A program made the position numbers and the translations under genes. Shown one piece after another: positions 3,259 to 44,050 of a stretch of DNA of 64,000 nt. The stretch is taken from the NCBI GenBank assembly GCA_949317995.1, contig OX439049.1, positions 15,066,395-15,130,394 on the forward strand, in the 5' to 3' direction. The DNA comes from Acholoe squamosa. Lineage: Eukaryota > Annelida > Polychaeta > Phyllodocida > Polynoidae. How positions within the stretch are numbered: the stretch's first letter is position 1; every line of letters starts with the position of its first letter. The notes under the pieces are model-generated. The model saw nothing but the letters and a program-made list of their open reading frames with translations. It had not been told where the DNA came from and ran no database searches.

Positions 3259-3331
3259 TCATTGGTGATTGTCACGAACACACTTGTTACCCTGAGGTTT
3301 GTAGTCCCCGCAACACTCGGGGCCACATGGC
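3259..3331 (-). CDS. Exon 13 of the astacin gene: end of TSP1 domain and stop codon
   Basis: Encodes residues 927-950 and the TGA stop at 3261-3259. The acceptor TTTTTTGCAG fits phase 2 of exon 12. The text PCGPECCGDYKPQGNKC supplies the last four cysteines of the TSP1-like domain (929, 933, 934, 944), and the protein ends a few residues later. There is no GPI signal or transmembrane segment, so the product is secreted rather than anchored. Confidence 0.9.
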
Positions 3332-6300
3332 CTGCAAAAAAGATCAATGCAAAATTATATGATTTTCAATTCAATTGTTCATTTGGGTTTTTGTTATTAA
3401 GGTGGTAATGGGTCTTGCCGTGTTGTCCCAAGGGATTGTAATTTACATGATAGCTTCTAAATATTAGGTATGAGTAATCTAAGATGCATAATTTGTAATA
3501 AATAACATAATGAAATATTGTACCTATCCTACAAATGATGGGCAGCAGGTACTTACATGTAATAAATTCTAGCAATATACATTAGACACCAGCTCTGACA
3601 TTTCTTTTCATTACAGGTCTCGTCACGGGTGGCTATCCTGATGAAAGAAAATAGAAAACAGGGTCAGTGATATCTGACAGGCATCAATGAAGTGAGAGTA
3701 TTACATTGGTATTCAAAGACTTATATAGATCTTTGTATATGGGGATTTATCTAGCAGGAATTAAACTAAATGTAAATTTTGGACTTATGATTATGTAAGT
3801 CATAATATTATGACGTTTGCATTGAATCATTAAGTGTATGATCTATGTGAATCACACAGTGTTCCTGTTTTACTGAAATGCAGTTCCTTATATCTCAATT
3901 TCTGTCAAAGGCAATTGCCTTCTTTGTAGGAGATCATTATAGCTTTAATTCGAAGGCTACTGCCAGGGATTGCCTTTCCTTGTAGGAGATCATTATGGCT
4001 TTAATTCTAAGGCTACTGTCAGGGATTGCCTTTCCTTGTAGGAGATCATTATAGCTTTAATTCTAAGGCTACTGTCAGGAATCGTCTTTCATTGTAGGAG
4101 ATCATTATAGCTTCAATTCTAAGGCTACTGTCAGGAATCGTCTTTCAATGTAGCAGATCATTATAGCTTTTATAACTATTATCATCCTTCTAATACAATA
4201 TCATTACTTACTGGTTTTGTACACCATTTGGCCGGGTACAGATATATCTCCACCTTTGTCGCCCACAGCCTCCACAACTCTGCGAGCATTCGCCCACCTT
4301 CTCCCACAAACACATCTCTGGATCACGCCCCCCACCGTAGACATAAACGGGGATCTGTGATGTTGCTGTAGTTGGTAAAGGTGTTGTTGTTGTTGTAGGT
4401 ATTAATATTGTTGTGGGCCGCCGTGTTGTTGTTGTCCACTGTTGTGTTGTTGTTGTCGGCCGCCGTGTTGACGTTGTTCGCTTTGTTGTTGTGGGCCTCC
4501 TTGTTGTTGTTGTGGGCCTCTTTGTTGTTGTTGTGGTTGTTGTAGGTTTTTGTGTTGTTGTTGTGCGTTGTAAAGTTGTTGTAGTTGGCCTCTGTGTAGT
4601 AGTTGTAGTTGTGGTTGTGGGCACAGGCCGTTGATTGTTTTGACTTGTTGTTGGACCATTTCTGACTGAAATAGAAAATTGTATATTTCAATATTGAAAG
4701 ACATAATGATATGTTACATGGCTCTTGTTAGATTTTACCTGGAGTATTTAAGAAACTAAAGGGGCCTGTTTTTGACTCCCTACAATGAAAGGTTTACTAA
4801 TTATTGAGCAATTCATACATTAGACTTACCTAGTTCCCTGACTCGGTGGAAGATGGTCTCAGGATGGCGGGCATCTCGCAGTTGATTAAACGGCAGTGTG
4901 AAAGAATTAGCTGAATGACCTGAGAGAGCATCTAATGTACTGCTCCTTACTTGATCACCTATGCCGACACTAACTATTCTGATTCCAGCTTCACGAGCCT
5001 GCATAGCACCTTGGTAGATGATCCCTTGTGGGAAGTTCTTAGGGAAGTTTGAGTCGGTGACAATAATGGCAACATCTGGTACATTTGGGCGGTTGCGCCT
5101 GCGGTCAAGCAGTACCTCGTGCTGAAGAAGCCATAGTGCCTTGTAAGGGTTCGCATCCTCTGGATCTCTTCTGATACCTTGGATGATGTCCACAATGCCA
5201 TCAGCATTGCTATGACTGCCAAGTGGAACACTGACATTGGCATATTTGGCATAACTGATAACACCAACTCTGTCACGGTCGTCCCTCAAGTCCACATGGT
5301 TTAGGAGCAAACGAATGAAGTATGTTACCTGGCCCCAAGGTTTACCCAAGTTGCTTCGGTCCAGGAGGATGACTATATCAGCCCGTTCATCATCAATGAC
5401 TGGAACATTAGATGAGGAATAGCCAGGGATTGTTCGACGAGGTGGTGGTCGTGGGCGAGGAGTTGTTGTCGTTGTTGTTGTTGATGTGCGGGATGGCTGG
5501 CTATACCGTTCACAATAGGGCCCGGAGAAGCCAGTGCGACACTCACACACCTGAGTACTTGGAGACGACTGCCAGCAAAAGGCACCATTTCTGCAGGGAT
5601 TCTTCGCACACCTCTTCTTGACTGCTGTGTATTGGAACTTGAAGCCTCGCCTGTTGTTGGTGAGCGAAGTCTGAGATGTAGACTTGAAGATTAGAAGCAT
5701 CTTATTGTCCTCTGAGAGCAGATCATCTCTGGGTGTGTTTGAACAGCAAAATCTGGTGTACAGAGAGAAAAAGGAATACTTAAAGACAATCAGAATTCAG
5801 GGTGTTGAGGAAGCAATAATTTTGATATTGTATAGAGTGTCATGCAATTTGATTCCCGGGATTTTTAGTTTCTAATGGGCGGATGTTCAGACATAAGCAC
5901 ATTTTCAGTCACCCCTATATTAGCGCTATTACAGGCCTATGTAAGTGGATGTTTGGCAGCTCGCAGGAACACTAACATACATCTATATACACATCATATT
6001 TCACATAGAACTAAGGACATTTATGTAGATTATCCAGGTCACCTTCTCCCAATACTGCGAACACTATACTTCTGGAGACATAACGGTCTCCTTTAAGTAG
6101 CTATAGGCATCCACAGAATAACTACTGGAGGGCCTCAAGTCCTTTAATATGTGAGGCATCTTGTAATTCATTCCTGGCCAACACTTCAAGACACCTCAAT
6201 GACATTACAAACAAGCCGTCACTTTCCCTTTACCCCTTACAGCATGTAGTTCTCATAATGACTCTAGCTTCCATTCCACAGCAGCATACAACCCCAATAC

Positions 6301-9223
6301 TAACATGAAATTCCTCTCCGTCTATTCATGGGAAAGAGGAATTTATTAGTGAGTAGATGGTGATGGTAAACGGAACTTGTCGGGTTGTAGAATTACTCCT
6401 CTTAGAGCTGCTGATACAGTAGTGCATCATGTCGGCTGCTCGCCAGCACTGCATTGGTGCATCATGCCGACCTTCTGGGACTGCATCAACCCAGCAGAGT
6501 CGTCATAATACATTAATGCATTAGAGGCCCTTAACCGGTGAAGAAATGCTACCGCAATCTTCCATGCCTTTGGTCATCATGATCCAGGAATGCAGCCCTG
6601 GGGAGTAACTCATCAGCGCTGCATTCAGGCATCATGCCGAGCCTGTAGTATCAAGAACTTCCCTCATGATGCACCAATGCAGTATTTACAATCAGGCTGA
6701 TCAACACTTCATTGATGTACCACATGGACAGGAAGCTTTAGGCACCATATGGCCTCTAAGTAGTTAATTAAAATTTGCCTACCTTGGGCCTGTGCTGCCC
6801 AGGTCTCCATTGTAGCGGATCTCCAACCAGTGGCGACATCTGTTGGAGAAACAGTAGAGGCCGAACTTGTCTTTAAAGGTCAGCTTTACCTGGTAGCCCT
6901 GTGGAGCCTGTGTGAGGGAGAAAATAAGAGGAATTCTTAGATAATATGACATGTTGACATCCTACACGTTGCAAAGGATGAAAACGGCAGTAGTAAAGTC
7001 AATTAAAGGCAATGTATAACCCATAAACTTTCAGGATATCTGGCTCATGTATCTAATCCTACTTGCTGATGCAACAACGGCGAATCTACCCAACAGCAAC
7101 AGGAAAAGGGCTTTTACTGCATTAATCTATAATACAGCACTAAGGGTGTCAGTGATATCTGAGAGTACAGCCCAGGTGGACCACCACCTGAGGGGGATAC
7201 CTGGATCTAATTTACTTCTAATGCTCAATACCAGGGCAGATGCTACTCTTTATGTGGAATGGTAGGTTTACTATTAAATGGTATCATCAATGTGACAGAC
7301 AAATCACTATTATGTGCTGCATTATTGTCTGTTGTACTTGATAGTGTCTATCCTATCCAAAAGCCCTTATCACTGATTACAGGTTAGAGGTAGTATTAGG
7401 GGTATCACCAGTAGTAACCCCTTCCCCTGTTTTAGCTGCATATTGAATATGAACCCCTGACCCTGTTGTAGGCTACATACATAGTACCGGTGAGGGGTGC
7501 ATGTAAGATCTCCATCACCCCACCCTCCCGCCTCCCCATCTTAACACGCACCCAGTACACTTTGAACCCCTTAAGGACCACAATATTCGTCATGCACAAT
7601 AGTCCTCTGGCGTCATAAATGTTTTTCCCACCTTCACAATTGATGCATTTACAAGGTGTATACTTCTAGGGTCTCAGCATGCATGATAGAAGAATGGTCA
7701 TGGCTTCTGTGCTTCACTCAACAGCGCTGTATTGACACACCATGACACTACCATATGATATTGATAATCAGATCTTGAGGCATTATTTAACCATTAAGTG
7801 GTTCAGTGTGCCTATATACATCTCTGTCCCGCCAGCCTCATCCCTTTGATATGGTGTATCAATCTATTCGCTTGGACATGGTGCATGAATGCACCATTAG
7901 GGGCCATCCACAAATGACGTCATGCTAAAGGGGGTGAGGGGGGGGGTCTAGCCCAGCATGACGAAATAAATTTTCCGTAGTCCCTCAGCATTGGCAAATT
8001 GTCAAAAAAAAACATGACGGGGGGAGGGGGTCAAAAAAGGTCAAATTTTGCATGATTTATGGATGGCCCCACAGTATGAAGTAACTAACTAAGGAAACAC
8101 TTTAGTAATATCACAATAACTTAATACGTACAGTGATCCTCCAGCTGCACTGGGTGCCTATGTCGTAGTACCCGCGGTTGTAGCCTGGAGACGTCACCTC
8201 CTTAGGACGACGTTCTACCTCTGCTTGTGCTGTCAGCTCTCCTCCACACTGTCCTGAAGAAGATGGGCAATGTTAAATATTACTCTTCACATACAGAATA
8301 GTGGTGTTAACCTTTAATACCTGCTATAGTTGATGCTGCCCTGGAGAGGAACTCCTAGGACTGCATTTAATGTTCCATGCAATATTTATATGCCTCCAGA
8401 AGGGTCGGTGTGATGCTTCAATGTAGTGCTGGTGAGTCGACTCAACAGCACTACATTGGTACGCCATACTTCCCACACAAGGAGATCAGAGATAAGTTTT
8501 GATTTATCCGAATGTTAGGTTTGATAGCCTCAGGGGAAGAATTCAGCGAAGTATAATTTTCATACATATCCTGTATGTTCAAGGCTGGCGTTGAATTTGA
8601 TTGAACAGTACTTGGAATGGTAATTTATTTACAATAAGAGATGAGAAGACTTACTATTGACTTTGACATCCTGACAGTAGGTACCGGTGAGACCATCCGG
8701 ACACCGACACCGGTAGCAGTTCTTGGGGTCCTGGTAACCACGGTTCTCACATGGACGGGCCAGTTTGATATTAGCACACCGGTCTGCAGGTATAACAAAT
8801 AACTATTGATAAGGAGTCATGTGGTTTTATTCATTAAAGGTAATTTAAGAGTAAATAACTTTGGGGCAGAGGTTAGAAGGAGTTGGGCAAATGGCCCTAA
8901 ATGTCTTTCCCTCCTTGTCTCTGTCTCCTTGTCTCTGTCTGTCTCTCTGTCTCTCTATCTCTCTTTCTGTCTGTCTCTGTCTCTGTCTCTGTCTGTCTGT
9001 CTTTGAGCTTCTTCACCTTTTGATATACCCTTTTCAGGGGGGTGGAGGTGTCGATAGTGTTGACATACTCACGGAATGACTCACGCTTCACGTTGTTGTA
9101 CACCAGTTTGGTTCTGGCTTGTTCTTGGTAATATGCTAGCATATTTCCCAAGTTCATGTTGCTCTCAAACTTCCTCAGTGCCTTCCTTCTGAGTCTTCGT
9201 GACTCGCTGTCTCTGTCTCTGTC

Positions 9224-9286
<63 letters not shown>

Positions 9287-12200
9287 TACTCTCCAATTCC
9301 AGTTTATCCCCTCACCTTCTAAGAATAAGACCTCCCATTAAAAGAATCTGGTACCTATTCTTAGACAGGACTGATTCGCAATTTCAGTCATGTCCATGGC
9401 TCAGACAGACCCCCAACATTCACCTAGAGCCCTCCCACTCCATCACAAGTTGATCTGTTTCATTCCACCTTGGACTCCCAAGCTTTCTTATATATTGTCT
9501 GGGTCTCACTTTACTTAATGACTCACTGTCAAGGAAAAAACCACCAGGATGAAAACTAGATTCTCTGGGAAGTCATGTATATTGCATTCAGGTTAAAATC
9601 TTTTAAGTGTGGTGCTGAGTATGTTATTTTAAAACGAATGGCTTCTTTTTCTGCTAGCTTCTGCAAACCTTCTTCCATGTCATTTGAAATTAGTGACCAG
9701 AATAAGAACATTTGGAGACTGGATAGTCCAAAATCAGTTATCATGAGCAGGGGGCCGCATCTAAGGGTAACCCCACTATGGACAGATGGCTGGATTTTCT
9801 GAAAGATATCTAATACCTCTGCATTTCTAACGTTTTTGCTTCGATCCCTGCAGCTAGTGGATTCTACATTTATTCTCATTACAAAGTCAGTATGCTCTGT
9901 TAGCTATGTACTATAAGGTTGCAGATATAGTTGGTATGTATTTGATTCTGCAATTCAAAATTCCAGCTGCCCATACTGCAGAAGAAATTGTATCTAGCAC
10001 AAGAGGAAAGATAGGTATATTGCACTCTATGACCCTGGATGTTCTAGCTAAGAGGAGAGACAAGACATAGGATATGGCAGTAAAGGGAATGAAATGTCAT
10101 ACATAATTATTATACAAGGAGTTTGGTCACAGCTTTTGGATGGCTATAGTTGTACTAACTCAAAGTACATGGGTCGGAAGTCTGCATTAATGTTACTTAT
10201 GTGCCAAAACATACACTGGATCCAAACCAATGAGTTATCTAGTCCTTCAAGGGTTTGGAATGATAAGAGAATTGTACCCACCGGCACAGTAGGCCAGGTT
10301 AATGATCTTGATGTCAGCAAATGAAAGCTCCACTCGTTGTCCAATGGTACGCTGATACAACGGGTTGGTTGTCTCCACTGTGTTTAAACCACTCGACGAA
10401 AATGCCTGCAAGATACAATAGTTTCAAATTTAGTAAAACAATTATGGTTTCAAATCTAAATCAGTTTTATCATCAAATGATTGAATGTGCATGAATCCAA
10501 TGCCCTGCTAGATTGTAGATGCTCCTCATCTCAAACTTTACTATCTTAGATCCATGCAGGTCGTAAAAAGTGTACCGATTTCTCCTGTTATTGAAATCTA
10601 TAAGTGGTTTATAGTACTGTGGTAAGGGTGGCTGGGATGACAAGACAAGATCAGAGGGTGAGATCTCTTCATGCCATAAACCCAATATTGAATGTACTAT
10701 AGCCTCGGAGGTTAGAAGGACAGTTATAAACCATTTTAAGGCTGCACAGAGCTTTTTTTCTTATTTTGGTGTAGATGCATGAATACATCACTGGCAAGGA
10801 ACTAGGAAGTCTCGCAGTTGGATTAACTGAAGAGATGGCATGAACCACCGACGCAGCGCTTGTGAGTTACTCACCAGCATTGTGTTGGGGCATTATGCAG
10901 GCAATGGAGATCTTTAGGTATCATGTCTTCATGAAGGGATTAACCTAGACTTACAGTGTGAAAGACCAGTGGAGTGGTAGCAGATTAGGATCTGGTCTCA
11001 AATCTCTGTTCCCTTTCAGAGACCTACCCTTATCATACCCAGAGGGACAGGTGCTATACAACACACAATAAAGATGTAGGCCCTGTGTTCTCCTATAGGC
11101 AAACAGTATGGTGCTGGCGCCATCATCTCTTGTTATTAGGATCTGAAAAGGCCTATTCCTTCATTTCTATTATGCATATCTCTTTGGAGACCGCATAATG
11201 CCTCCGGGTTTATGTTCCATTGTGGCCATCATACTCTAGTATAGTTCTGCGTGTCTATTTACAAGGATTGCATTGTTGCATCAAGGTGACCCTGTGCGAC
11301 TGAATCAATCATGTATGGTCAGCATGATGTACATGGATGTTGCCCTAGTGAGTAACTCGCTGGGCCTACATCCATGCATCAATAGTATGCCGAGAAATGG
11401 TTATACTGCATGTGGCCCTTACAGAGTAAGACCCCCATGTTGGGTAGATCCTCAAAGGTCATGCACAAGTGGGGCATAGTTTTATTTTGACATTTTTGTA
11501 CCTCAGTACAATTTTCCATCCGTGAGTCCTTGATAAGAGAAGGTCAATAGTAGAAATCCTTCAAAATATTTTTATCTCAAATCAAAGACCGTGCTTTCCT
11601 ATGAAAGATAGAACATGCACATTGTCGGTTTTTGTTTCCCAAGTGTGCAATAAATTTATTATGCGTCAGCGACTAAAATCAGACACAATTGAAAATGGAA
11701 TACGCACCCTTTTCATAAAAAGGCTTGAGCACATGATACAACTAGCTTGCCTGAGAAACTCAATATACGGTACTAGTATCACTAGTATTATCAACTGTAC
11801 AGGCCAATGGGTCTCCTTTTATTGTGGTGCCATAGGGTCTCTATAAGGACACATGTAACTACACATAAGATATACGGCAGTGTAGGGGTCTGGTAGGTGT
11901 TTTAACATGTGGGCTTCGTCTTAGAAGTTGGGATAGAGGGAAAACATCCAGGGTTAGAATGACGCATTTAAATTAACCATATATGGTGCGCTGTCTTGAT
12001 GTTTCTAGCTCTATTAAGCTTTTGGGTTTGCTGATGACTTCCTAACCGGTATTTCCAGACTGACATTTTAAAATAGTCATCATGACGGTAAATCAGCGGT
12101 ACCAAGAACCAAATCTTAGTGGCATTGCCTGCATGGGTACAAGAAGACAGTAATCCCTGACATCAGCAAAACCTCACTGGCTAGGAACTCACACTTGCAG

Positions 12201-15200
12201 TATCCAGGCCTGACTTTAGAGATGAACAAACTGCAATGGGCTGGGACCGTGCACATATCAGTGCTGGGAAAGGTCTTGACAAAGGGAAATAAACTTGGAA
12301 GTATAAAGTGACCATCACAAGGACTAATGCAGCCTCAGCTAAATCCAATCTGAACATAAAAGGACCCTTGCCAGAGGGATGCCCACCAGCCGCCTCGTAA
12401 TCAAACATATGAATGGAAAATTTCCAATCCCTTTTCCAGGACGTCCAAACTGGAACAACATTAACCTTTCTATGCACAAACAATGAAATAAAAAGAGCTT
12501 ATTGTCCTCCATGTTTGAGCAAACTTGGATCAGATAAACTGAAGTACACAGTTCTATGAAGCCCCACCCATACAGGCCCAGGAGCTACAAGTCAGATAAC
12601 ATGCTCGTCCTTTTTTTCTCAATGCCTACCTTTGTTAGTGATCCCTTTGATCTCATCCTTCCATGCTCTAGGCCACCCTCTATGGGCCTCACCCTCTAAC
12701 TGCTGTAACTCTCTGAATGTCACATGATACCTTCGGGTTGATGGTACCTGGTAGTCATGATACATCAATGATACACTTCTTTGGAGCATCATGCTGACAC
12801 TTCGGAAGTGTATCAACCAAGTAGGAGCATCATGGAAACTAATGGACGTGCGGCATTAATGCATCATGTACCACTAAAAGAGTTACCAACCACTAGAGCA
12901 GAGGTAAAGAGAGCAACACATGAATCAATTCACATCAGGTTATGTGTGATTTACTAATCACAACAGGTGATTAACACTCTCATTGGACAGTGGGGTGATT
13001 ATGGATTCATTAATTAATGTTTTTCATGTGGTCTGGCAGAGGTTAACTGCTGGAGATTATCAGGAACCATCAGTATACGCCCTACATCCAACGCCTGCGC
13101 CTATCTAACTATCTACTATAGTGTAGCTCTGTGCATTCTCGGGTTTTGGTAATTAGGTCGTTCAAGCCTATACCTGCATGACACCTGGTAAATAATGTAG
13201 TTAGGGCTACATAAAGACAACTATTAGAGAGGTTAAGATATGAATGTGTACCGCAACGCATACGTGTAACGCCATAGGTCACGTGGAGGGGGGTATCCCA
13301 AGCCAGCAGTACACAACCTGTAGACCAGCCGTTTTGTACGTGTAGGGGGTGTTCTACACATACATGTAAGGAGAATTGATATATAAAAGAATTAAATGTT
13401 TGTATAATTGCAATGGGTCTGCCAAAGTAAAAAAACAGACAGATGGTTACCTGGTGTAGGTGTAAATTGGTCCAATTCTAATTATATCACAGGGCGATTA
13501 GCTTTTGTTTTAACCACTTAGACGATTCAGGTGGGACCACATACTTTTGTGTTGACAGACTCATATAGATTTAGTTCATCTTAACCACAATATGTCTACT
13601 TGTACTGGAACCTGTACCTGTAGACCTATACTCTATGGACACAAGTAATGCAGAAAATGCTGTAAGATATATACATATACGTGTGCTGTGTATGTTTTCA
13701 GAATATACAAATATCATACACCACTAACCTTGTTCTCCTTTACATGTAAGATCCCACTGGTACCCGTATAGCTATGATGCCACCAACCATATAAGTTTTT
13801 AACCTTTCCCAGCCCCTATCTGCCCCTAGCATTTCATCTTTGTTTGGAAGACATTCCAAAACAAACACATACCAACCCACTGCTACTATATACACCAAAC
13901 ACACAACAGAATTACTATGCCTAAAGTGGACAATTCTAGTTCTACTTACTTTTTTGTGAGTCATTTTGAATAACATGTAATCTACTTTCTGTCCAACGAA
14001 GTATACCCTATCATTTACTTTAGCATGGGCGTGTAAAGCAGGGGGGCAGGGGGGACATGTTCCCCCACTTTTGGCCAAATCCTCAAAAGGTCAAAACTAA
14101 AAGGTCAAGCAAAGGGAGGTCAAGAATTGCAGAAAGCCCCCCTGGTCCCACCCACTCTGAAACTGCTTCCCACGCCCCTGCTTTAGATTATTCAAAATAG
14201 TATCTCATTATGCTCCGAGTTGTACTTAATAATATATGTTTTCCAACATTAAATTATCAATAACCAGTTTCCTGCCAATTACAGCCACAACATTAGGAGG
14301 AACTCCTTACCATCCCCTTTAATGGCCACATAACCCTTAATTGCTCCCCTGGGCCCTGTGTCTATACTTTTCTGAGTTCTACTCTCCTGCTCTATTGAAG
14401 AGAGCTGGCTAGGACAACTTAAGAAACACTAATGCCATGGTGCCATCCACCTCCAGTGCACCTCTCACTGGTATATACTTAGGGCCTTCTACCTATTCAT
14501 TTGTGCCTTATATCTTATGTGTAATCAATTGAAATACATGGATCCTGTTTCTATAGTAGGCTGTGGATGGCACCATTTGCATTAGTGTCTCTTAAACTCA
14601 AACTGAGTCCCATCTGCTCCATTGATAAAGGCAAAATTGTTGCTTTTCAAACAATTCTTCTGCCAACCCTTATAGGTGGACAACACAACTTTAAATAAGT
14701 GAAATATACATGAAAACCTGGATAATTCATTTGATGATAGATGAGCTGAAATTCAAGGATTTTGATGGCACCATTGCATGAGTGTTTCTGAAGTTGTCCT
14801 ATCCAGCTCTAGCCAATAGAGCATTAGAACAGAACTCAAGTTTAGAAAAAGAAGCATGTTTTTGCAGGGTCTGCACTATTAGCTTTGCATTCAGGTATAC
14901 AATCAGGGCTATGATGGCAGCAAAGTTGGTTAGAAAACAACAAATTTACTTACACCAATAGAACAGATGGGACTCAGTTTGAGTTCTCTCCAAAAGTTTA
15001 GAAACAGAGGCAGTTTTTGCTCTATTCATTTGGATCTAGGCCCTTGGCTAACACATGCTCAGATAGAACTCAAACTGAGCTATTTAGGATAGAGCAACTT
15101 AATAAACACTAATGCAAAAGGTGCCATCCAAACCAACTATTGAAACAGGGCATGCTCGATATGATGTATGAATGCAGCACTATCGAGCTACCCATCCAAA

Positions 15201-18200
15201 CAAAATTCCTGCATCACTAGTGTAATTAAGTCGAGATGGATCATCATGGGCCCTTAATGGGTTTAGACGTATGGTATGCCCTATAGCTATTGGTAGCCTG
15301 GGTATAATAGTTATTGCATTATAACCGAACCTTATATATTTATTAATGCATACATGCATTATGTTCACCATGTGGTAATAGTACACTCCTGTATGGGCAT
15401 CATGAGGCACTGCAAGCAAGTAGACCCACCAGCACTGCATTGGTGCATCACGACGATCACTAAACATGAATTTTAAGGCACCATGAGGCTCTCAAAGGAC
15501 TAAAACATATGATAACTACCTGCCCCTATTATAGACAAACTAAAAGCCCATTGAGCCTGTCAGTTATGGCAGTCAGCCAAAGACTACTCTGCTGTAACAG
15601 GTGCCGCCTGTAATACACCCAATACACTTAAATCGAATAACTCCTCCATGGGCAGGGCTCCAGTATAGTACCTTAGTAGACATGCAATGTGTGATATGGT
15701 TCGTTAGAGATATGTATCAATGCTCAAGTCTCACAGAAGGGGTTCAATAGCCTATAGTGTGAACTGCAACTATGACCTTTTACAAAGTATCAAACTTTAC
15801 CCAATTCTTGACAGGTTTACTAAATGACGCATGTAGTGCTAGTGGCATTCAAGGATATGGATTTACACTCATGAGATTTGGGAATTTGACTTTTGAAGTT
15901 ATTAATTTGTATGATTACATCTCAAGGCAAAAGTACGTATACAAAAATATACCAGGGTTCGTACTTATTCTATTCTTTGCGTGAGACAACTTTAGAAACG
16001 AATGCTAATAAGGCAGTTTACTCACTTTTGCTCTGTAGTGCATCGCAGATCCCATGTCGTAGGGTACATTTTTATCTTCTATGAACTTGGCTAAGACCAT
16101 GGCAAAGTTGCCCTCTGCTCCAGGGGAGATATTGTCTTTAAGTATCCGGATATAGCTATCCCGGTCTATCCGCTGGTGCTCATGAAACAAGCCCAGTGAG
16201 TGGCCGATCTCATGAGCTATGTATCCTACCTGGTGATTGGATGAAGGAATAGAAAACGTTAGAGATTTCTCACTGGTCGTCTCGTAATTTATCAGGTAAA
16301 CTTTGTTGTTATTATCTTCTATATTTTCTCTAAACCTGTTTCTCTATGGCAGGCCTATACTATAGTTTGCCTCTTGGTATCGCTTTGATTTCATGTAAGC
16401 TAACTTGCATTATCGTAAATAATAGTATCAATTTGTAATCCATAATGTAGTGAGATAAGAAACACTCACTGAGGAGAAACAGTTGTAGGAGAGGTAGACA
16501 GGCTGAGGGGTGACAGAAGACCGGCCGATATAGGAATAGCACCTGAAAAAAAATCAAAGATCACAGTTATGTAGGATCTAAAATTGGGGTTTGATATTCA
16601 AAGGGAAACAAATCCTTTACAGTACATTCTTTGTATACTATCCATCTAATTAGAATCGATTTAATCAGGGCAATAACAAGACTTTGAAAACCAACAGCCT
16701 TTTTTATAGATAAGAAAGACAGTCAGAATCTAACTCTGTATACATGTATAAGCTAGTCACAAATAGCAGGATTATTTTATGTGAATAACTTCTTCCCGTA
16801 GAGATAGCATTGCACGGCCGATCGCCACACCCCCAGTGGCGTAACATGTGCCGATCGACCACAGCGGCCGATCCACCACTGCAGCCTCGTTCTGGGTGCA
16901 TGTAAACATTCAAAATGGCCATGGGCGCTCGTGCGGTGAACTACGGTACCGGATTTTGATAATTTTTCCTTATTTAAACCCTCTAAAAACATAAAATAAA
17001 TATAGAACTAACCTCCCCTGGTGTCCTCGGTGGACGATCCATCCCTCGGGAGACAACTCCCTCGTGGTGGATCGACCACCTCGTACATCACGGTCGTTTA
17101 GTTCTATCTATTTACCTCATAGCTATGACGGGTAGCTACGTGAGCAGTAAATGCTTTCTTTATGCAGCAGGCTTATCTATCTGCTTTATGAACAGTTTAT
17201 AAGTTTGTTCTAGGAAACAGGGCGACCTATAGTAGTACATGAGTTAGTCATAGCTATCAGGGTCAACCTGCTATAGGAGCAGTATATGAGTAGCTCATGT
17301 TGAACAGGGACAGCATACTGAACTCTGAGTAGTATAGGCCGTGGATCTAGGGACCAGGGTACTCTGTGAGTAGTATATGAGTCGGTCATAGCTATCAGGG
17401 TCACCCTACTGCTCTGTAAGTAGTATATGAGATGTTCGTGTTTAGTAGGTTTATCGAACTGCTCTATATAGGTTAGCCTAATTATATCAGTAGAATAAGA
17501 CGTTGTTTGAAATCTTTTCCTTAGTGACGTTGGTGCTGAGTTCTACACTTAAAAATGCAAGTCCCCCAAATAAAAGGAATTTCATTTCTATAAATTATCC
17601 ATGCAAAGTGATCTTAACTACTCACCCATAGCCGCCAACTTTAGAAAAGAGTAGATGGGGTTCAGTGACTCGTTGATTCACTCGCTGTTCTACATACTCC
17701 AGACACGTATCCTTAGTCCACATATCTATAGCTTTCCTTATAATTGTGACCTCATGGTCACCTGGAAAGTCAGAAAAAATAGATAATAATGTAGTTACTG
17801 GTGATCAGGTCATAAATACAAAAAGAAAGTTTACCTGATGTACGTCTGTAGTCTAGTTTGTTTAATACCGACTGATGAGAATTTAAAAAGGCTTATTTCC
17901 ACACCATTATATTGCAATTACACACTTTATCCTTGGATAAGTGTCTTCAAAATTATTTCATAACAATCCCAGAACTATTAAGACAACAAAATAATACATA
18001 ACATAATCATATAACAGAATATTAAACTTACGTAATGTGCCATCAACCTTGTAATATATTTTTGTTGGCCACTTGGTGACAGGAAAATCAGCAAAGCGCC
18101 TGATCTTCCTCTTAACCCTCGTCCTTCCACCACACATGTTACTGATCTGCTGGTCAAGGACATCAATCTGATCTGTGGTCAGCATCAGGTCCTCCTCTAT

Positions 18201-21200
18201 ACAGAACTTACACTTCTTATTACCTGATGGCTGTTGATGGAAATGAAGGGAATATATCAGTTTTGAGCAAGGCAATGCATATTGAATCGTTATGTTGAGT
18301 ATATAGGACAGGAATATTTCCATGTAATAAGAAATCTTTCATAAGAAAGGGATCAGAATTCTCGGTCTGACATATAATTTTGTAATATTCATTATCAAAG
18401 AATTGAGTCTGAGTAGCATACCGAACTAATCTCCGGGTGTGGGCATTGCTCATTTCATACTTAGATCAACTGAACAATAGTTTGTATGCTGGCACGAAAA
18501 TGGCTTTTGAATGTATGTGTTTACGTTGGTCCAAATAAGCCAAACCCAGCAGACTAAGTTCCATTCTGAAAATCTCTATTTGTTAGTATGACAAACCATT
18601 ATCATCTCAGCATCTCTGGCCATTTCTCACCAGGCTTAAACTTACCCAAGGATGGACCTTCTGATAATACATGTGTTAGTGTTATCACATCCAGTTTCAA
18701 ATATAGCGAGCACTGAAAATTGTTAAAGTGAGATTTGCTCCAGGGCACGAGCCCGCTATAGATCATACAGCTATCATGTAAACACTACTGTGCTAAGCTT
18801 GCATAAGGTGCACACGATGCTCAAATGCAGCATGGCCAGTGGTTGGCATAATATATAATGCAGCCTACTTGCCAGGGATGATTTCAATCATCATGCTGGT
18901 CTAACTGGGGCACTACCCAAAGGGAGGCATGGAGGAGAAATGCAGTACTGTTGATTCGAATCACCAGCACTGCATAGCATTCTCATATCATTCCTACCAA
19001 CGAACATAAGCCCTAAGGCATTATGTCACCCTTAAAGGGTTAGGGAACCAATGAAAACTGAGATGTCAATGATAAGATGGTGATGAGACTTGCCCTCTGG
19101 GCAGGGTTTAGTGTAAGATGATAGAGATAGGGGTAGAGGGAGCTGTCAGTGAGTGGCGTGCTTATCCAACATGACTGTATGCAAGGCGTGGTTTTTACTC
19201 ATGCTAGAGCCACTAGGACTGGGGGGTATCTAGAGCCTAAAAGGTGGTGGCGTTGAACAAGTCATGGGATTATCATACAGATTTAGAGGGGTTTATTCAG
19301 TGGAGGCATTAAAGGTTTGTATAGAGCATGAATGCAGCACAAATGCAGCATCGATGCATCATGTCAACCCTACAGGGCTGATACCCTCGTGAAGAATCTG
19401 CAGTTCTAATGCAGTGCTGGTGAGTAGACTCGCCACATTTAGTCAAGCGGCTGCATTGGTGCATCGTGACGACATAGGACCATGAATCTAAAAGCGTATT
19501 GCCTTATCTAATCAGCAAAGATGTCTAATACTCACCATAGGTAACTGGTCCCTGACACTGGCTACATTGGCATTGATACAGCTAGCTGCCATGTCTTGTA
19601 TAGCTTTACATCGTGCCTCTATATTGTCGCAGGGTTGGCAGTGGTCACACTCCATGTATTGTTGTTTGTCGCAGTCGTACCGTAAACGTTCTTCTATTGT
19701 ACTATTTTGTGTTAGCATCTGACGTGGGTACCACATTTCACCTCTGGCCTGTAAAATATAGAAAAACATAAAACACATGAAAAACAGTGTAAGGTTCATG
19801 GGAGAAATATAAATCAAGATCACTCACCACATTCATAAATGTGGTGAGTGAATGGTTTGCACTCGTTATTCTACTAAAATATTATTATGGAGTCTAGGGG
19901 GGCATGAAGATCATTTTTCATACAAGTACATTGGTTGATCAGGCTCTCTACTAGACAAATAGCAAATACCCAATATAACAGAGAGTTAAGGGACATTGCC
20001 AATACATACAACTTAACTTTTCCCTAAATATACATATACATGGAGGCACTGGAGAGGGGGTAGGGAGAATTAGGAGGAGGGAACGAGCTTGTGTACCACA
20101 CCATCAGGGTGGAACCACTCCATGGTGGGAGACGCCAGATGATCGACTTGGGAGCAGGTATGGCATATAGCCAAGACACAGGGAGACCCAGCGACCTGGT
20201 CCCACACCCCAGCCACCACAGCTTCCGCCCCCAGCACACCACCCAGTGTAATCATAGTAATAACTGATGATTATATACAAAATTGAAGGGATAGAGACAC
20301 ATGCATAGGAACAACAGTTTAACATTTTAATTACTGTCAGTAGTTATGTTATACCTTTAGTCTGATTAAATTATACCAAGCAGCCTCCACATAAAGACAA
20401 CCTGTCTTGGACTCACACCAACCCTGCCGCAACCTGCCAACACTCAATAGTGGCATCTACATGTACACTGAGTGATAATAGGGAGGCTACTTTCCATCAT
20501 TATATCCCTCTCCCAGTGAGCTCCATAGAAACCCAAGGTAGAGGGAGGATCCAGACAAATCTGTAACTTTACAATACAGGGGTATATACTGACTGAGGAC
20601 ATCATAGGGGATTAGTAGTACCGTAGTAGTTCACACAGGTGCCTGTGGGAGTTGTTTTTCTTTTTGATTCAAACTATTGTAGCCCTGGTGCTGATACAAG
20701 ACAGAGGGTTATCTGTAATATAGTTTTAGTGTTTAAGAATTATTTTATCACACCTATGCCCAGCCCTATAATTATCTGAACTCTCGTTTAGGTCTGGTGG
20801 ATGTTTAAGACCCCAACACTTACCTAAGCCAATATGGCATTGTGGGCACGGGGTGATTTTGCTGACAGAGTCAACCCTAAATGGTAGTCAGGGAAACATG
20901 AGAGGTAGTGTAAGAGAAGAAATAGGAAGAAGGTAGAAATGTGATCATGCGCCAACTGACTTGACTGTGATGGGATGTAAGCAGAAATGCAATGTGGGTG
21001 TCCTACTCAATCATGCTCCACCTGGTGGCCATTCCTTGTGCTATTAGTAATGTGAGTATAGGGACCTCACAGGAGAGTGGGAATAGTGATGTTTTCACTT
21101 TCCATATTAACCTGTATTGTATCTGTCTGCCACATTCTATTCACATGCAGCCTGTGTGGGAGCCAGTTATACCATAAAGAAACACCTATGCTCTCATGGG

Positions 21201-42600: not shown

Positions 42601-44050
42601 AAAAAACTAGGAAAAAAGTGGCTATTGCTGTCTGGCTGTGGTTAATGTGACAGCAGCCCCCGCATCTGGATAGACAGACTAAGGATCTATTATACCATGT
42701 TGTCCAGTATGAGAGCTGGGATCAAAATAGGTGCTGGTCTTGAATATGCACCAGGGTGTTGGGATACTAAAACTAATATTAAACACTAGAAGTTGTATGT
42801 CACATACATATTGACCTCGTATGGACTTTCAGAATAATCTGTATTGGAATCTATATGTTCTGCAGTATGTAATTGGGCCAATACGGTATATACATCCATT
42901 ACATACACATTACAACTTACGAGATGAATCCTGCCCTGCATCCCTTAGGGCTACTACACCCTCCTCATTACTCCAGGTTCATGCTGTTTTTCTTTTGCCA
43001 TAGAGATTAACGCCCTCATATATCAGATGACCATAACATATATAATCGTCAAGGCAGCTGCTACTCCATAGATCTATTGCCCTTTTTATCCTCCAGCCCC
43101 TATAGCATATGGTGGCAGTCCAAGCAACTTGATCTATAGGCACAGCTAAGGATGGCTTCGTGTGGTTTTAGAGAGCAGCCATCAAGTTCCCTTTTTAGCT
43201 CTCACTTACGGAGGTCTATTGTGAAGGGTGTCTATTGTACACACACATCTACTGTGTTTATGAACAGGCGGAGGAGCTGGGTTTAGACAGGTATTCAATG
43301 AGGGCCTTTTTCATGAATACTTTTACAAGGTCTGATATGATAGGTATGAGGAGAAGGGACAGGGCTTCCTTACTTCATCAAAACCTACCCAGGTCTACTT
43401 CCCCTAGTGTCTGGCACCGCTCACAAAGTCACCAGGTCTTTTTCTTGTAACCTTCTGCATGTGTCATAAAAAGGGGTGAAAAGTGGGCCAGTTTGCACAC
43501 ATTCAATAAGGCATGTCTCTCTGCGGCTGAGTGGGTGGTATGCTGCACCATGAAAAGACCTTACTTCCTTACTAAGCCCAATCTGAATTAACTATAATCA
43601 TTTTTGATATCATGGTCATTCCTCTGAAACCCACTCTGAATTAATTATAACGTTCTCCTTCTACCCTGAGAGTGTGTTTCAGACTTGTAAATCATACAAG
43701 TGGCAGTGGTGTAAGGAAAGAAAAGGAAAGTAAGGCCTAAGGGTGGAGTCCGGGTTATTATAGTTAATAATGCACTCTGACTGTATATGAGACTGGATTC
43801 ATATGAAATAACCAGCTGTTATATTAGCAGTGGGGGCCAGGGACAATACACCCCCTCCCTTCTCCCTCCTCTACTTTCCCTGGTGCCAAGACCACCTGCT
43901 GAAGACATGGACAGACCTGGTGATGAATGGTAAAGTAGCATAGGTTTAAGTATATTAAAGTATATGACTTACCTGAATAAGGCTCAAGGTGCAACAGAGG
44001 AACAGCAGACACAGCAGCATCCTGGCTATATACTCCTGTAGTCCACACAT
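3259..44050 (-). CDS. NAS-like astacin metalloprotease with EGF, CUB, EGF, vWA and TSP1 domains (whole spliced gene)
   Basis: Predicted secreted zinc endopeptidase that would cut extracellular matrix or cuticle-type proteins. The coding sequence joins 13 minus-strand exons: 44050-43973, 19748-19536, 18230-18032, 17761-17626, 16542-16470, 16229-16026, 10405-10282, 8783-8655, 8253-8132, 6907-6783, 5752-4830, 4665-4212, 3331-3259. They sum to 2853 bases, 950 residues plus stop, with every junction GT-AG and every phase matching. Domains by residue: signal peptide 1-26, propeptide 27-142, astacin about 143-343, EGF 345-379, CUB 388-512, EGF 516-548, Thr/Pro linker 549-592, vWA 593-775, Thr-rich linker 776-888, TSP1-like 893-944. 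Astacin-EGF-CUB-TSP1 is the order of the C. elegans HCH-1/DPY-31 class (established knowledge); I do not recall a vWA domain in that class. The model is inferred from sequence alone, so extra small exons in the 24-kb first intron or alternative 5' exons are possible. Confidence 0.92.
3912..4167. repeat. 56-bp minisatellite, about 4.5 copies, in intron 12
   Basis: The phrase GTAGGAGATCATTAT recurs at 3926, 3982, 4038 and 4094, and as a variant (GTAGCAGATC) at 4150, an exact 56-base period. Each unit continues with AGCTTTAATTCTAAGGCTACTGTCAGG and variants. Copies differ by a few bases. The array ends about 45 bases from the exon 12 donor site. Confidence 0.95.
4212..4665 (-). CDS. Exon 12 of the astacin gene: Thr-rich mucin-like linker and TSP1 start
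   Basis: Encodes residues 776-927 (phase 1 in, phase 2 out; acceptor TATTTCAG, donor GTAAGT). Residues 790-870 are almost all Thr with Lys/Arg-Pro spacers (TKRPTTTTRRPTTTKRTT), made of ACA/ACT/ACC codons, so a repeat-built, probably O-glycosylated stalk. From residue 893 the text CLWEKVGECSQSCGGCGRQ matches the TSP1 repeats of NAS astacins (C...CGGCG.R.R.R.C). The WxxW motif for C-mannosylation is reduced to one Trp at 896. The repeat also gives long antisense and out-of-frame reading frames, which are artefacts. Confidence 0.92.
4830..5752 (-). CDS. Exon 11 of the astacin gene: end of CUB, second EGF, Thr/Pro linker and vWA domain
   Basis: Unusually long exon (923 bp; residues 468-776, phase 2 in, phase 1 out, GTAAGT donor). 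CUB ends with FCCSNTPRDDL and MLLIFKS through about residue 512. A second EGF follows (cysteines 516, 521, 527, 537, 539, 548; ECRTGFSGPYC). A Thr/Pro/Arg linker leads to a vWA domain at 593-775: ADIVILLDRS (first strand), DDRDRVGVISYA, YKALWLLQHEVLLDR, PDVAIIVTDS, AREAGIRIVSVGIGD, all in vWA order. The MIDAS metal site is incomplete: DRSNL at 599-603 in place of DxSxS, and no clear Thr at the second site, but Asp701 is kept. Sequon NVS lies at 640. vWA domains usually bind matrix or cell-surface proteins. Confidence 0.93.
6783..6907 (-). CDS. Exon 10 of the astacin gene: middle of the CUB domain
   Basis: Encodes residues 427-468 (phase 0 in, phase 2 out; acceptor CACACAG, donor GTAGGC). YQVKLTFKDKFGLYCFSNRC and HWLEIRYNGDLGSTGPR match the CUB segment of NAS-type astacins, where HWLEIRYN.D...TGPR.C is strongly conserved. 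Confidence 0.94.
7900..8070. mobile_element. 171-bp MITE-like element with GGGGCCATCC ends
   Basis: The left end reads GGGGCCATCCACAAATGACG and the right end is its imperfect inverse, closing with TTTATGGATGGCCCC. The inside is G-rich with poly-A and no coding capacity. This is a small non-autonomous DNA element or foldback in intron 9. I see no clear target-site duplication. Confidence 0.7.
8132..8253 (-). CDS. Exon 9 of the astacin gene: first part of the CUB domain
   Basis: Encodes residues 386-426 (phase 1 in, phase 0 out; acceptor CTTCAG, donor GTACGT). QCGGELTAQ and VTSPGYNRGYYDIGTQCSW are the usual opening of a CUB domain, with the first disulphide pair at Cys388 and Cys421 and the conserved Trp423. 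Confidence 0.94.
8405..8475. repeat. Palindromic GCAGTGCTGG-type element in intron 8
   Basis: GATGCTTCAATGTAGTGCTG is followed by GTGAGTCGACTCAACAGC and an inverted CACTACATTGGTACGCCAT. It is a compact hairpin of the family that recurs through the introns and fills much of the 401-bp intron 8 (8254-8654). Confidence 0.75.
8655..8783 (-). CDS. Exon 8 of the astacin gene: first EGF-like domain
   Basis: A symmetrical phase 1-1 exon for residues 343-386, the classic arrangement for a movable EGF module. Six cysteines (345, 354, 365, 368, 370, 379) fit the EGF pattern. The text CENRGYQDPKNCYRCRCPDG is close to the C.NGGY.DP..C..C.CP.G form found just after the protease in NAS-type astacins. Donor GTAAGT, acceptor CTGCAG. 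Confidence 0.94.
8784..10281. other. Intron 7 with two CT/CTGT microsatellites
   Basis: Pyrimidine microsatellites of TCTC and TCTG units lie at about 8908-9004 and 9208-9282. They create long spurious Leu/Ser-Cys reading frames on the plus strand and Glu/Thr/Arg frames on the minus strand. The rest, including a 107-codon minus frame at 9556-9879, shows no domain or exon evidence. Confidence 0.8.
10282..10405 (-). CDS. Exon 7 of the astacin gene: C-terminal end of the catalytic domain
   Basis: Encodes residues 302-343 (phase 0 in, phase 1 out). The text NPLYQRTIGQRVELSFADIK matches the conserved astacin segment P.YQ..IGQR..LS..DI, followed by the closing cysteine in NLAYC. The donor is GTGGGT, weaker than the others but the only one nearby that keeps phase with exon 8. 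It follows a 5.6-kb intron. Confidence 0.94.
14024..14180 (+). mobile_element. MITE-like element, copy 1, with CATGGGCGTG / CACGCCCCTG ends
   Basis: A 157-bp element with about 10-bp terminal inverted repeats. It is flanked on both sides by CTTTAG (14018-14023 and 14181-14186), a likely target-site duplication. A second copy lies inverted at 53994-54155. The inside includes GGGACATGTTCCCCC and runs such as AAAAGGTCAAAACTAAAAGG. It has no coding capacity. Confidence 0.85.
14373..15150. repeat. Nested inverted repeats in intron 6
   Basis: One arm pair is about 14545-14595 with 15100-15150 (GGATGGCACCATTTGCATTA against its inverse). A second pair is about 14376-14447 with 14757-14836 (sharing TTGTCCTA.CCAGCTCT and the GGCACCAT end). 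A third is 14590-14621 with 14956-14986 (CTCAAACTGAGTCCCATCTG). It looks like related foldback elements inserted into each other. No reading frame. Confidence 0.75.
16026..16229 (-). CDS. Exon 6 of the astacin gene: zinc-binding active site and Met-turn
   Basis: Encodes residues 234-301, phase 0 at both ends (CACCAG acceptor, GTGAGT donor). It carries the full astacin signature HEIGHSLGLFHEHQRIDRD at 239-257: zinc ligands His239, His243 and His249, catalytic Glu240, and the family-specific Glu250. The Met-turn YDMGSAMHY at 290-298 gives Met296 and the zinc-linked Tyr298. All catalytic residues are present, so an active metalloendopeptidase is expected. Confidence 0.97.
16470..16542 (-). CDS. 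Exon 5 of the astacin gene: edge strand and second conserved cysteine pair
   Basis: A 73-bp exon for residues 209-233 (phase 2 in, phase 0 out), with a run of T before the CAG acceptor and a GTGAGT donor. CYSYIGRSS corresponds to the astacin motif C.S.VGR.GG, and YNCFS supplies the next conserved cysteine just before the active-site helix. The spacing to the zinc motif in exon 6 is normal for the family. Confidence 0.93.
16543..17625. other. Intron 4 of the astacin gene
   Basis: A 1.1-kb intron filled mostly by a foldback element at 16772-17111 and, next to it, degenerate direct repeats of about 60-100 bases at 17105-17475 based on phrases such as AGTAGTATATGAG and CATAGCTATCAGGGTCA. Confidence 0.75.
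16772..17111 (-). mobile_element. Foldback element, copy A
   Basis: 340-bp GC-rich element that matches, inverted, the sequence at 34454-34821. Shared text includes GATAATTTTTCCTTATTTAAACC, GCAGCCTCGTTCTGGGTGCA and several GGCCGATCC/GGATCGACC boxes. One end folds on itself: TAGAACTAA...CTCGGTGGACGATCC pairs with GGTGGATCGACCACCTCG...TTAGTTCTA. No reading frame with recognisable content; non-autonomous element inferred. Confidence 0.85.
17626..17761 (-). CDS. Exon 4 of the astacin gene: N-terminal lobe of the catalytic domain
   Basis: Encodes residues 164-209 (phase 1 in, phase 2 out; acceptor TTTCCAG, donor GTGAGT). The text IIRKAIDMWTKDTCLEY matches the astacin helix and first conserved cysteine (I..A...W...TC..F). 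LLFSKVGGYG matches the conserved strand before the second cysteine. It follows exon 3 after a 270-bp intron. Confidence 0.94.
18032..18230 (-). CDS. Exon 3 of the astacin gene: end of propeptide, furin site and start of protease
   Basis: Encodes residues 98-163, phase 0 in and phase 1 out (GTAAGT donor). The acceptor CAACAG just before CCA keeps phase with exon 2; a second AG seven bases further in would break it. IEEDLMLTTDQ at 108-118 lines up with the FxGD-type segment by which astacin propeptides block the catalytic zinc, with Asp111 as the likely zinc ligand and the Phe and Gly replaced. The basic run RVKRKIRR at 135-142 is a furin-type cleavage site. The protease domain follows with FPVTKWPTKIYYKVDG, matching the usual WP..I.Y start of astacin domains. 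Confidence 0.92.
18231..19535. other. Intron 2 of the astacin gene
   Basis: 1.3-kb intron. Palindromic family members lie at about 18810-18905, 18930-19042 (ending CCTTAAAGGGTTA) and 19325-19480. No coding content seen. Confidence 0.7.
19536..19748 (-). CDS. Exon 2 of the astacin gene: cysteine-rich propeptide, first part
   Basis: Encodes residues 27-97, phase 0 at both ends, with a pyrimidine/A-rich acceptor ending TTTTACAG and a GTGAGT donor. It holds six cysteines (52, 60, 63, 66, 73, 83), including the compact run CDHCQPC, and an N-glycosylation sequon NST at 41. This lies between signal peptide and protease, so it belongs to the inhibitory propeptide. I do not recognise a named domain. 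A cysteine-rich prodomain is not what I expect of a typical astacin; it may form its own disulphide-bonded fold. Confidence 0.85.
21591..21724. mobile_element. 134-bp MITE with AAGC[A/G]CTGGTTCCACAGGC ends
   Basis: Left end AAGCACTGGTTCCACAGGC and right end GCCTGTGGAACCAGCGCTT are inverted repeats with one mismatch in 19 bases. Inner CGGTCGGAT / CCGACCGAT boxes add more pairing, so the whole unit can fold into one hairpin. No reading frame. Confidence 0.85.
28437..28601. mobile_element. Palindromic CCTTTAAGG-family element
   Basis: Bounded by GTCCTTTGGTGGCCATAATG on the left and CCTAAAGGGTTAA on the right. Inside are ATGCATAAGTGCAGCC and CGCCAGCACTGCATTGCTG, the core palindrome of the family. 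165 bp, non-coding. Confidence 0.7.
29470..29640. repeat. Two adjacent core palindromes
   Basis: The first is GATGCACAAATGCAGC...CAATGCACTGGTGCATC. The second is GCATGAATGTAGCCCTGG, TGAGTAGACTTG, then CCAGGGCTGCATTC. Each is a 60-70 bp hairpin around the shared centre GAGT(A/C)TAGTC or GAGTAGACTCG. Confidence 0.8.
30420..30600. mobile_element. Palindromic CCTTTAAGG-family element
   Basis: Starts TAACCCTTTAAGGACTACAT, then a core with ATGATGCATCAATCCAGCCC and TTTTGTGCATCATGTTAACC, and a second partial core. The right end is unclear. Confidence 0.65.
31256..31480. mobile_element. Palindromic CCTTTAAGG-family element
   Basis: Starts CTAACCCTTTGAATTCCAG. The core reads GGCAGTGCTGGTGAGTC, TAG, then TCACCAGCACTCTG, followed by a second core from GATGCATGGATGTAG. 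No coding content. Confidence 0.65.
33148..33402. mobile_element. Palindromic CCTTTAAGG-family element with both ends visible
   Basis: Left end TTAACACTTTGAAGAC and right end GGGCCCAAAGGGTTAA are imperfect inverted repeats around about 255 bp of degenerate core palindromes (CACATCGATGCAATCACGGC, TGGTTTATCATGCCGAGCC). Confidence 0.65.
33553..33627. repeat. TA dinucleotide microsatellite
   Basis: About 75 bases of uninterrupted AT/TA, inside intron 1. Likely length-variable. Confidence 0.97.
34246..34440. mobile_element. Palindromic CCTTTAAGG-family element next to foldback copy B
   Basis: Starts TTAACCCTTTAATTACGG. The core pairs GATGCAAAAATGTAGCCC with GGGCTACATTCATCC; a second core has ATGTACCAATGATGTGCTG and CAGCACTTCATTAGTAC. 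It stops about where foldback copy B begins. Confidence 0.7.
34454..34821 (+). mobile_element. Foldback element, copy B
   Basis: Second copy of the element at 16772-17111, in the other orientation and inside intron 1. The first 140 bases form a hairpin: ATAGAACTAAAACGACC...GTGGCCGATCCACC pairs with GGTGGATCGGCCACCG...TTTAGTTCTAT. The loop is G-rich (CGAGGGGG). Somewhat longer than copy A because of extra loop sequence. Confidence 0.85.
40498..40796 (-). CDS. Unproven exon candidate inside intron 1
   Basis: Minus-strand open stretch with a strong-looking acceptor (about 14 C, then TTTCAG) at 40797 and a GTAAGG donor below 40498, phase 2 in and phase 1 out. An internal Met at 40774 is followed by a hydrophobic run (MGAVLLTYCSLLLLLP), then a cysteine-containing segment (CDPC, ACCQP, HICYDAHC). 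It could be a first exon of a small secreted protein nested in the intron. Reading frames of this length occur by chance here, the C-run may be a simple repeat, and I found no partner exon. No function proposed. Confidence 0.2.
43973..44050 (-). CDS. Exon 1 of the astacin gene: signal peptide
   Basis: Encodes residues 1-26, ending in a hydrophobic, Leu/Cys-rich run (LLCLLFLCCTLSLIQ) typical of a secretory signal, then a GTAAGT donor at phase 0. There are two possible starts, Met1 at 44050 and Met11 at 44020; the shorter one gives a more classical signal peptide. Both have A at -3. An in-frame TAA lies a short way upstream, so the reading frame does not extend further in this exon. The exon fits exon 2 directly in phase but lies 24 kb from it, so the pairing is inferred from phase and from the need for a signal sequence. 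Confidence 0.72.

Follow-up and report, generated by a model that had tools for sequence, protein, structure and literature searches.

A probable matrix astacin with a metal-site-deficient vWA domain in the annelid Acholoe squamosa

Does a single gene of the polynoid annelid Acholoe squamosa encode an astacin metalloproteinase with a von Willebrand factor type A (vWA) domain behind its CUB module, and could such a domain direct the enzyme to the extracellular matrix? The question is raised by a stretch of 64,000 nucleotides (assembly GCA_949317995.1, contig OX439049.1, positions 15,066,395 to 15,130,394), hereafter the window, in which a first-pass annotation had read the domain order astacin-EGF-CUB-EGF-vWA-TSP1. 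From astacin to vWA this order is borne out on the minus strand by exon joining together with Pfam matches. Judged from its sequence, the gene probably encodes a real, functional multidomain matrix astacin, and on balance we favor an annelid host gene for a secreted enzyme which its EGF-vWA block, Thr-rich stalk and TSP1-like tail tether to, or aim at, the matrix.

The gene model comprises 13 exons (A to M) and 12 introns on the minus strand between window positions 3259 and 19748, with a single frame kept throughout. Scripted joining of exons B to M yields a product of 869 residues, in which the first stop is the final TGA. AG and GT are present at 24 of 24 intron ends; the exon edges were picked by eye at these dinucleotides, so that agreement in phase is not an independent test. 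We infer that exon A belongs to the gene. The features of the model are:

Exon A, 19536-19748, minus strand: part of a Cys-rich pro-region, 71 residues; open, with an AG acceptor, a GTGAGT donor and phase 0 into exon B.
Exon B, 18032-18230, minus strand: end of the pro-region (EEDLMLT; RVKR, KIRR) and start of the catalytic domain; placed by splice sites and phase, with the Pfam Astacin match running from model residue 53.
Exon C, 17626-17761, minus strand: astacin catalytic domain; splice sites, phase and Pfam.
Exon D, 16470-16542, minus strand: astacin catalytic domain, CYSYIGR segment; splice sites, phase and Pfam.
Exon E, 16026-16229, minus strand: active site HEIGHSLGLFHEHQR and Met-turn SAMHY; E-value 2.1e-21 as a lone exon in the astacin profile search of the genome.
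Exon F, 10282-10405, minus strand: C-terminal end of the astacin domain; E-value 3.3e-4 as a lone exon.
Exon G, 8655-8783, minus strand: first EGF-like module; splice sites and phase, with a weak Pfam EGF_2 row below cut-off.
Exon H, 8132-8253, minus strand: first part of CUB; splice sites, phase and Pfam.
Exon I, 6783-6907, minus strand: middle of CUB; splice sites, phase and Pfam.
Exon J, 4830-5752, minus strand: 923 bp in one open frame with the end of CUB, the second EGF, a Thr/Pro linker and the entire vWA domain.
vWA domain inside exon J, 4879-5382, minus strand: Pfam VWA; metal-site columns D, S, N or L, A, D.
Exon K, 4212-4665, minus strand: Thr-rich linker, then the start of the TSP1-like module (CLWEKVGECSQSCGGCGRQR).
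Exon L, 3590-3637, minus strand: continuation of the TSP1-like module; splice sites and phase.
Exon M, 3259-3331, minus strand: PCxxxCC tail with the stop codon; its pattern resembles that of the last exon of a paralog at C15:15.26 Mb.
Candidate signal-peptide exon, 43973-44050, minus strand: 26 hydrophobic residues, 24 kb upstream, with two nested ATGs; hydrophobicity and donor scan.

The span first given for the whole gene, 4830-16229, holds exons E to J only. Outside it, positions 16470-19748 encode the pro-region and the N-terminal half of the catalytic domain, and positions 3259-4665 encode the Thr-rich linker with the TSP1-like tail. The residue first given as the start of the vWA domain, 593, equals 496 + 71 + 26, and that count thus probably included the 26-residue signal exon. 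A 56-bp tandem repeat (window 3913-4170, 4.6 copies, 92% matches) lies in the K-L intron.

In the 869-residue product, residues 53-244 match Pfam Astacin with an E-value of 1.1e-55 (188.7 bits). The zinc motif HExxHxxGxxHE is intact in exon E and is accompanied by the Met-turn, which places the enzyme among the astacins (M12A). In the PDB, the astacin-EGF-CUB part comes closest to the catalytic domain of BMP1 (E-value 5.8e-28). The pro-region is unusually Cys-rich (CDKQQYMECDHCQPC...KCKFC; window 19536-19748 and 18150-18230). A degenerating copy, or pseudogene, of a vWA astacin could be suspected from the eroded metal site and the long branch of the vWA domain, both described below, but 869 codons without stop or frameshift, the AG/GT intron ends (edges set by eye), the intact catalytic residues and the Astacin score make this very improbable.

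The CUB module is recognized at residues 301-412 (E-value 9.3e-12). The EGF module preceding it is weak by Pfam, and the same module is present in 4 of 4 paralogs examined. The second EGF (419-450) lies just under the cut-off in the full product (8e-4) and over it when the segment is searched alone (4.3e-6). The vWA domain proposed by the first-pass annotation is matched by Pfam VWA with an E-value of 4.6e-19 in the spliced product (496-656) and of 3.2e-20 as an isolated segment.

The concern that two separate genes had been joined is answered, as far as CUB and vWA go, by the DNA itself. Since exon J encodes the end of CUB, the EGF and the complete vWA domain, the CUB-vWA join needs no guessed splicing, and a split-gene artefact at this position was rejected. 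That an astacin-EGF-CUB gene and an adjacent vWA gene were merged might be argued from the 5.6 kb between exons E and F and from the uncertain signal exon, but the single stop-free exon of 923 bp, and a paralog in which astacin-EGF-CUB-vWA recurs on a single strand over a span of about 5 kb, leave this explanation hardly any probability. The EGF-vWA block starts where the CUB-ending exon of that paralog has a phase-1 GTAAGT donor (by eye) and ends in the window gene at a phase-1 donor. Phase-1 donors at both edges are as expected for class 1-1 exon shuffling.

If spliced as modelled, the favored secreted enzyme would be synthesized as a zymogen bearing a Cys-rich pro-region and be freed by cleavage at the basic sites just ahead of the catalytic domain. 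The active form would then cut proteins of the cuticle or of the extracellular matrix, its substrate being positioned by the CUB and EGF modules. The EGF-vWA block, the Thr-rich stalk and the TSP1-like tail would hold the enzyme on a matrix polymer or direct it there.

Several observations weigh against this picture. The exon at 43973-44050, the sole candidate to pass a scan of 19760-45000 for hydrophobicity and a phase-0 GT[AG]AG donor, is an unproven candidate for the signal peptide. At the place of FxGDI, the aspartate switch motif of astacin pro-regions (PMC9848320), the window gene has EEDLMLT, in which by eye the Asp is kept and F and G are absent, so that the canonical motif is lacking. 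The TSP1-like tail matches 0 Pfam families at E≤10, its 3 PDB matches at E≤10 are all unrelated, and a genome search with it returned its own exons and one match with an E-value of 0.9, with no convincing second copy. The structure model of the vWA domain, calculated by AlphaFold from a single sequence, has a mean predicted local distance difference test (pLDDT) score of 49.5, which is low. Finally, the window vWA does not retain the metal-site residues D-S-S-T-D; of the 15 complete and distinct vWA rows compared with it from this genome, 14 have them and the remaining row reads D-S-S-D-D.

With regard to the pro-region, exons A and B translated together gave a single Pfam row with an E-value of 0.2, far below its cut-off, and latency of the window astacin may differ from that of standard astacins, given the Cys-rich pro-region and EEDLMLT for FxGDI. 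With regard to the tail, the C-terminal region CLWEKVGECSQSCGGCGRQR...ETCNEKKCQSWPCGPECC, with the motif CSQSCGGCG, resembles a TSP1 module. A shared tail is supported at the motif level by the paralog at C15:15.26 Mb, in which WSEWGRC...CGGC occurs and the last exon, PCxxCC...stop, agrees with exon M in phase and is similar to it in pattern; no Pfam match was obtained for this tail piece either. The TSP1 module that had been placed at the C-terminus therefore stands as a motif with a counterpart in a paralog, and profile confirmation, by Pfam or by a relevant PDB match, was not obtained.

What the vWA domain could bind is suggested by its relatives. Nearest in the PDB by sequence is collagen VI alpha-3, with an E-value of 9.6e-21 summed over repeats of which none is significant alone, and integrin alpha-1 (E-value 4.8e-8) and the integrin alpha-2 I domain are also close. 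The low-confidence model shows the strand-helix order of vWA domains, and the best 50 of its 1769 Foldseek matches (E≤10) are vWA-fold proteins. Among the matches listed, the integrin alpha-1 I domain with a collagen peptide is best, and integrin I domains, vWF A1/A3, collagen VI and PTMP1 are included. Collagen-binding I/A domains (integrin alpha-1, integrin alpha-2, vWF A3) are among the closest solved sequences and folds.

The metal-ion-dependent adhesion site (MIDAS), DxSxS...T...D, is degenerate in the window vWA, which reads D-R-S-N-L, has Ala for Thr and keeps the last Asp, so that two of the five residues are lost. The third column is N or L depending on the alignment, in which a gap of one residue falls in the window loop, and Ser is absent either way. 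The comparison drew on 18 other rows, of which one duplicate of the vWA paralog and two lacking the first loop were excluded to give the 15. These differences argue against the usual mode of ligand binding. Metal-dependent docking by this domain is unlikely, and since the site is broken any binding would have to be metal-independent; metal-independent binding to the matrix is possible and is the mechanism we prefer. A1 and A3 of vWF bind their ligands without metal. The docking proposed in the first-pass annotation is possible, its simple metal-dependent form being weakened by the lost residues.

Alternatively, the domain may be a degenerate spacer or a scaffold for protein-protein contacts (dimerisation, inhibitor binding), kept for structure only and not for docking. 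A site missing two residues where 14 of 15 other rows keep all five, and a branch length of 2.3 against a median of 0.61 in the vWA tree, favor this reading, whereas metal-free ligand binding by vWF A1/A3, the collagen VI A-domains among the closest matches, the frame open across the whole domain and the strand-helix order of the low-confidence model speak for a binding domain. We consider the spacer or scaffold rather unlikely.

Is the window gene alone in carrying such a tail? The genome (1.48 Gb, 63 contigs) gave 71 exon-level matches in an astacin profile search, and a tree of 31 active-site exons over 68 columns groups the window gene with five others at a support of 83/78; when the window gene is set aside, the five others have 94/86, and neither value attains the starred level of the tool. 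Five of these six genes were examined, including the window gene, while the gene at C13:59.47 Mb was read at its active-site exon only. All five share an astacin-EGF-CUB chassis and diverge after CUB: beside the window gene, one continues with vWA-MAM, two with MAM and one with a TSP1-like tail.

The vWA paralog (C15:14.948-14.953 Mb) resembles the window gene in having astacin-EGF-CUB, a Pro/Thr linker and then vWA (Pfam 5.8e-32). It differs in that its vWA occupies an exon of its own, retains an intact metal site and is followed by a MAM-like exon (2.1e-5, just under cut-off), and no second EGF was seen by eye between CUB and vWA. In the paralog at C15:15.26 Mb, astacin-EGF-CUB is followed about 8 kb further on by the TSP1-like exon, and no vWA was found in the 40 kb examined. 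The genes at C15:8.78 Mb and C13:59.45 Mb have the same chassis within the same weakly supported clade but carry MAM after CUB, at E-values that pass the cut-off (4.4e-6 and 3.4e-6, respectively); the 10 kb read at each locus contained no vWA match. Beside its intact EGF exon, the C15:15.26 Mb region also contains a row of partial copies of this exon (C15:15.2635-15.2644 Mb), three of them 80 bp apart, which resemble a minisatellite born from a coding exon.

For the two vWA domains a common origin was considered and is not established. They are 28% identical. In genome searches that scored the best 150 of 178, 150 of 459 and 150 of 310 candidates, the paralog's vWA reaches 93 bits against other vWA domains and 47.5 bits against that of the window gene, among the matches listed; there the best other match of the window vWA is at C11:65.07 Mb (56.1 bits) and the paralog ranks third (46.9 bits). 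The vWA tree places both in a single open fork of four long-branched rows, of which two are the same paralog sequence. Since the paralog's domain is intact and much closer to other vWA domains than the window's is, the two may have been gained separately, or gained once and then changed quickly in the window gene. Beyond the cases described, no vWA lies within 100 kb of an astacin match, by comparison of coordinates by eye among the matches listed.

Elsewhere in the genome, about 85 vWA matches (hand count, among the matches listed) form a tandem array in one 138-kb stretch (C11:60.121-60.259 Mb, minus strand), many with identical scores and mostly spaced about 1.0-1.5 kb apart; it may represent a single giant gene or a family undergoing expansion.

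The divergence of tails suggests, tentatively and with a little less than even confidence, that a single astacin-EGF-CUB chassis was given new targets several times through phase-1 module exchange after CUB (TSP1-like; EGF-vWA with TSP1-like; vWA-MAM; MAM), and that vWA was acquired on at least two occasions, on one of them as a binder that needs no metal. This reading is made slightly firmer by the two MAM matches over cut-off.

The host's own DNA points to an annelid. The mitochondrial contig (C63, 15,641 bp) carries on one strand, with genes named by eye, nad4L-nad4-[gap at expected rRNAs]-nad1-nad3-nad2-cox1-cox2-atp8-cox3-nad6-cob-atp6-nad5, which we take to be the annelid order, and the telomere repeats are TTAGGG; a nematode host was rejected on these grounds. 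A top-shell or abalone host was likewise dropped on the mitochondrial gene order; the egg-lysin family PF01303 gave no match, in a search that scored nothing anywhere. On the mitochondrial contig, a run of about 400 bp that precedes nad1 (~4440-4860) reads YMYM in several frames on both strands and is thus mostly TA dinucleotide repeat.

Among known systems, BMP1/tolloid proteinases share with the window gene the closest solved catalytic domain and an astacin combined with CUB and EGF modules, but have several of each module. We know of no vWA or TSP1 in them. The C. elegans homolog has five CUB and two EGF modules, and BMP-1 cleaves fibrillar collagens (PMC2824743). Subgroup V of the C. elegans astacins (NAS-33 to NAS-38, including HCH-1 and DPY-31) combines astacin, EGF, CUB and TSP1 (PMC2824743). 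The likeness to this order noted at first holds for astacin-EGF-CUB, by exon joining and Pfam with a weak first EGF, and extends to TSP1 by motif, not by profile. Unlike subgroup V, the window gene carries an EGF-vWA block together with Thr-rich linkers after CUB and ahead of the tail, and it belongs to an annelid; it resembles this type and is not assigned as a member. A secreted sea star protein of de-adhesive gland cells, Astacin-like Sfp, similarly combines astacin with CUB and stays on an extracellular layer, the adhesive footprint (PMC9382459), but vWA and TSP1 are unmentioned for it in the available portions of that paper.

No recognizable astacin-EGF-CUB-EGF-vWA-TSP1 protein emerged from a literature search, which left subscription papers mostly outside. 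In the available portions of PMC3204972, PMC4334923, PMC4460706 and PMC12549020, astacins and vWA domains are named as separate proteins, with no fusion. A 2023 review lists both 'VWF (von-Willebrand-factor domain; PS50234)' and TSP among the partner domains of astacins (PMC9848320, Fig. 1 legend); such proteins share with the window gene an astacin and a von Willebrand type domain, the legend giving no order, species or metal-site state. The statement that no characterized member has EGF-vWA before TSP1 is accordingly not contradicted, although the astacin-VWF pairing itself was already catalogued. A vWA domain in an astacin is unusual but not unheard-of, and it is the domain combination that is new.

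Collagens, cuticles and egg coats are substrates of astacins, and the choice of substrate is thought to lie in the tail modules. More interesting than vWA docking alone is the swapping of tails downstream of CUB among the genes of one clade. If true, it would provide a small natural library of aimed matrix proteinases in an annelid lineage, and a clade within one genome in which the same catalytic chassis bears different tails, including a vWA domain without its metal site, would allow a direct test of whether tails set the target of a matrix proteinase.

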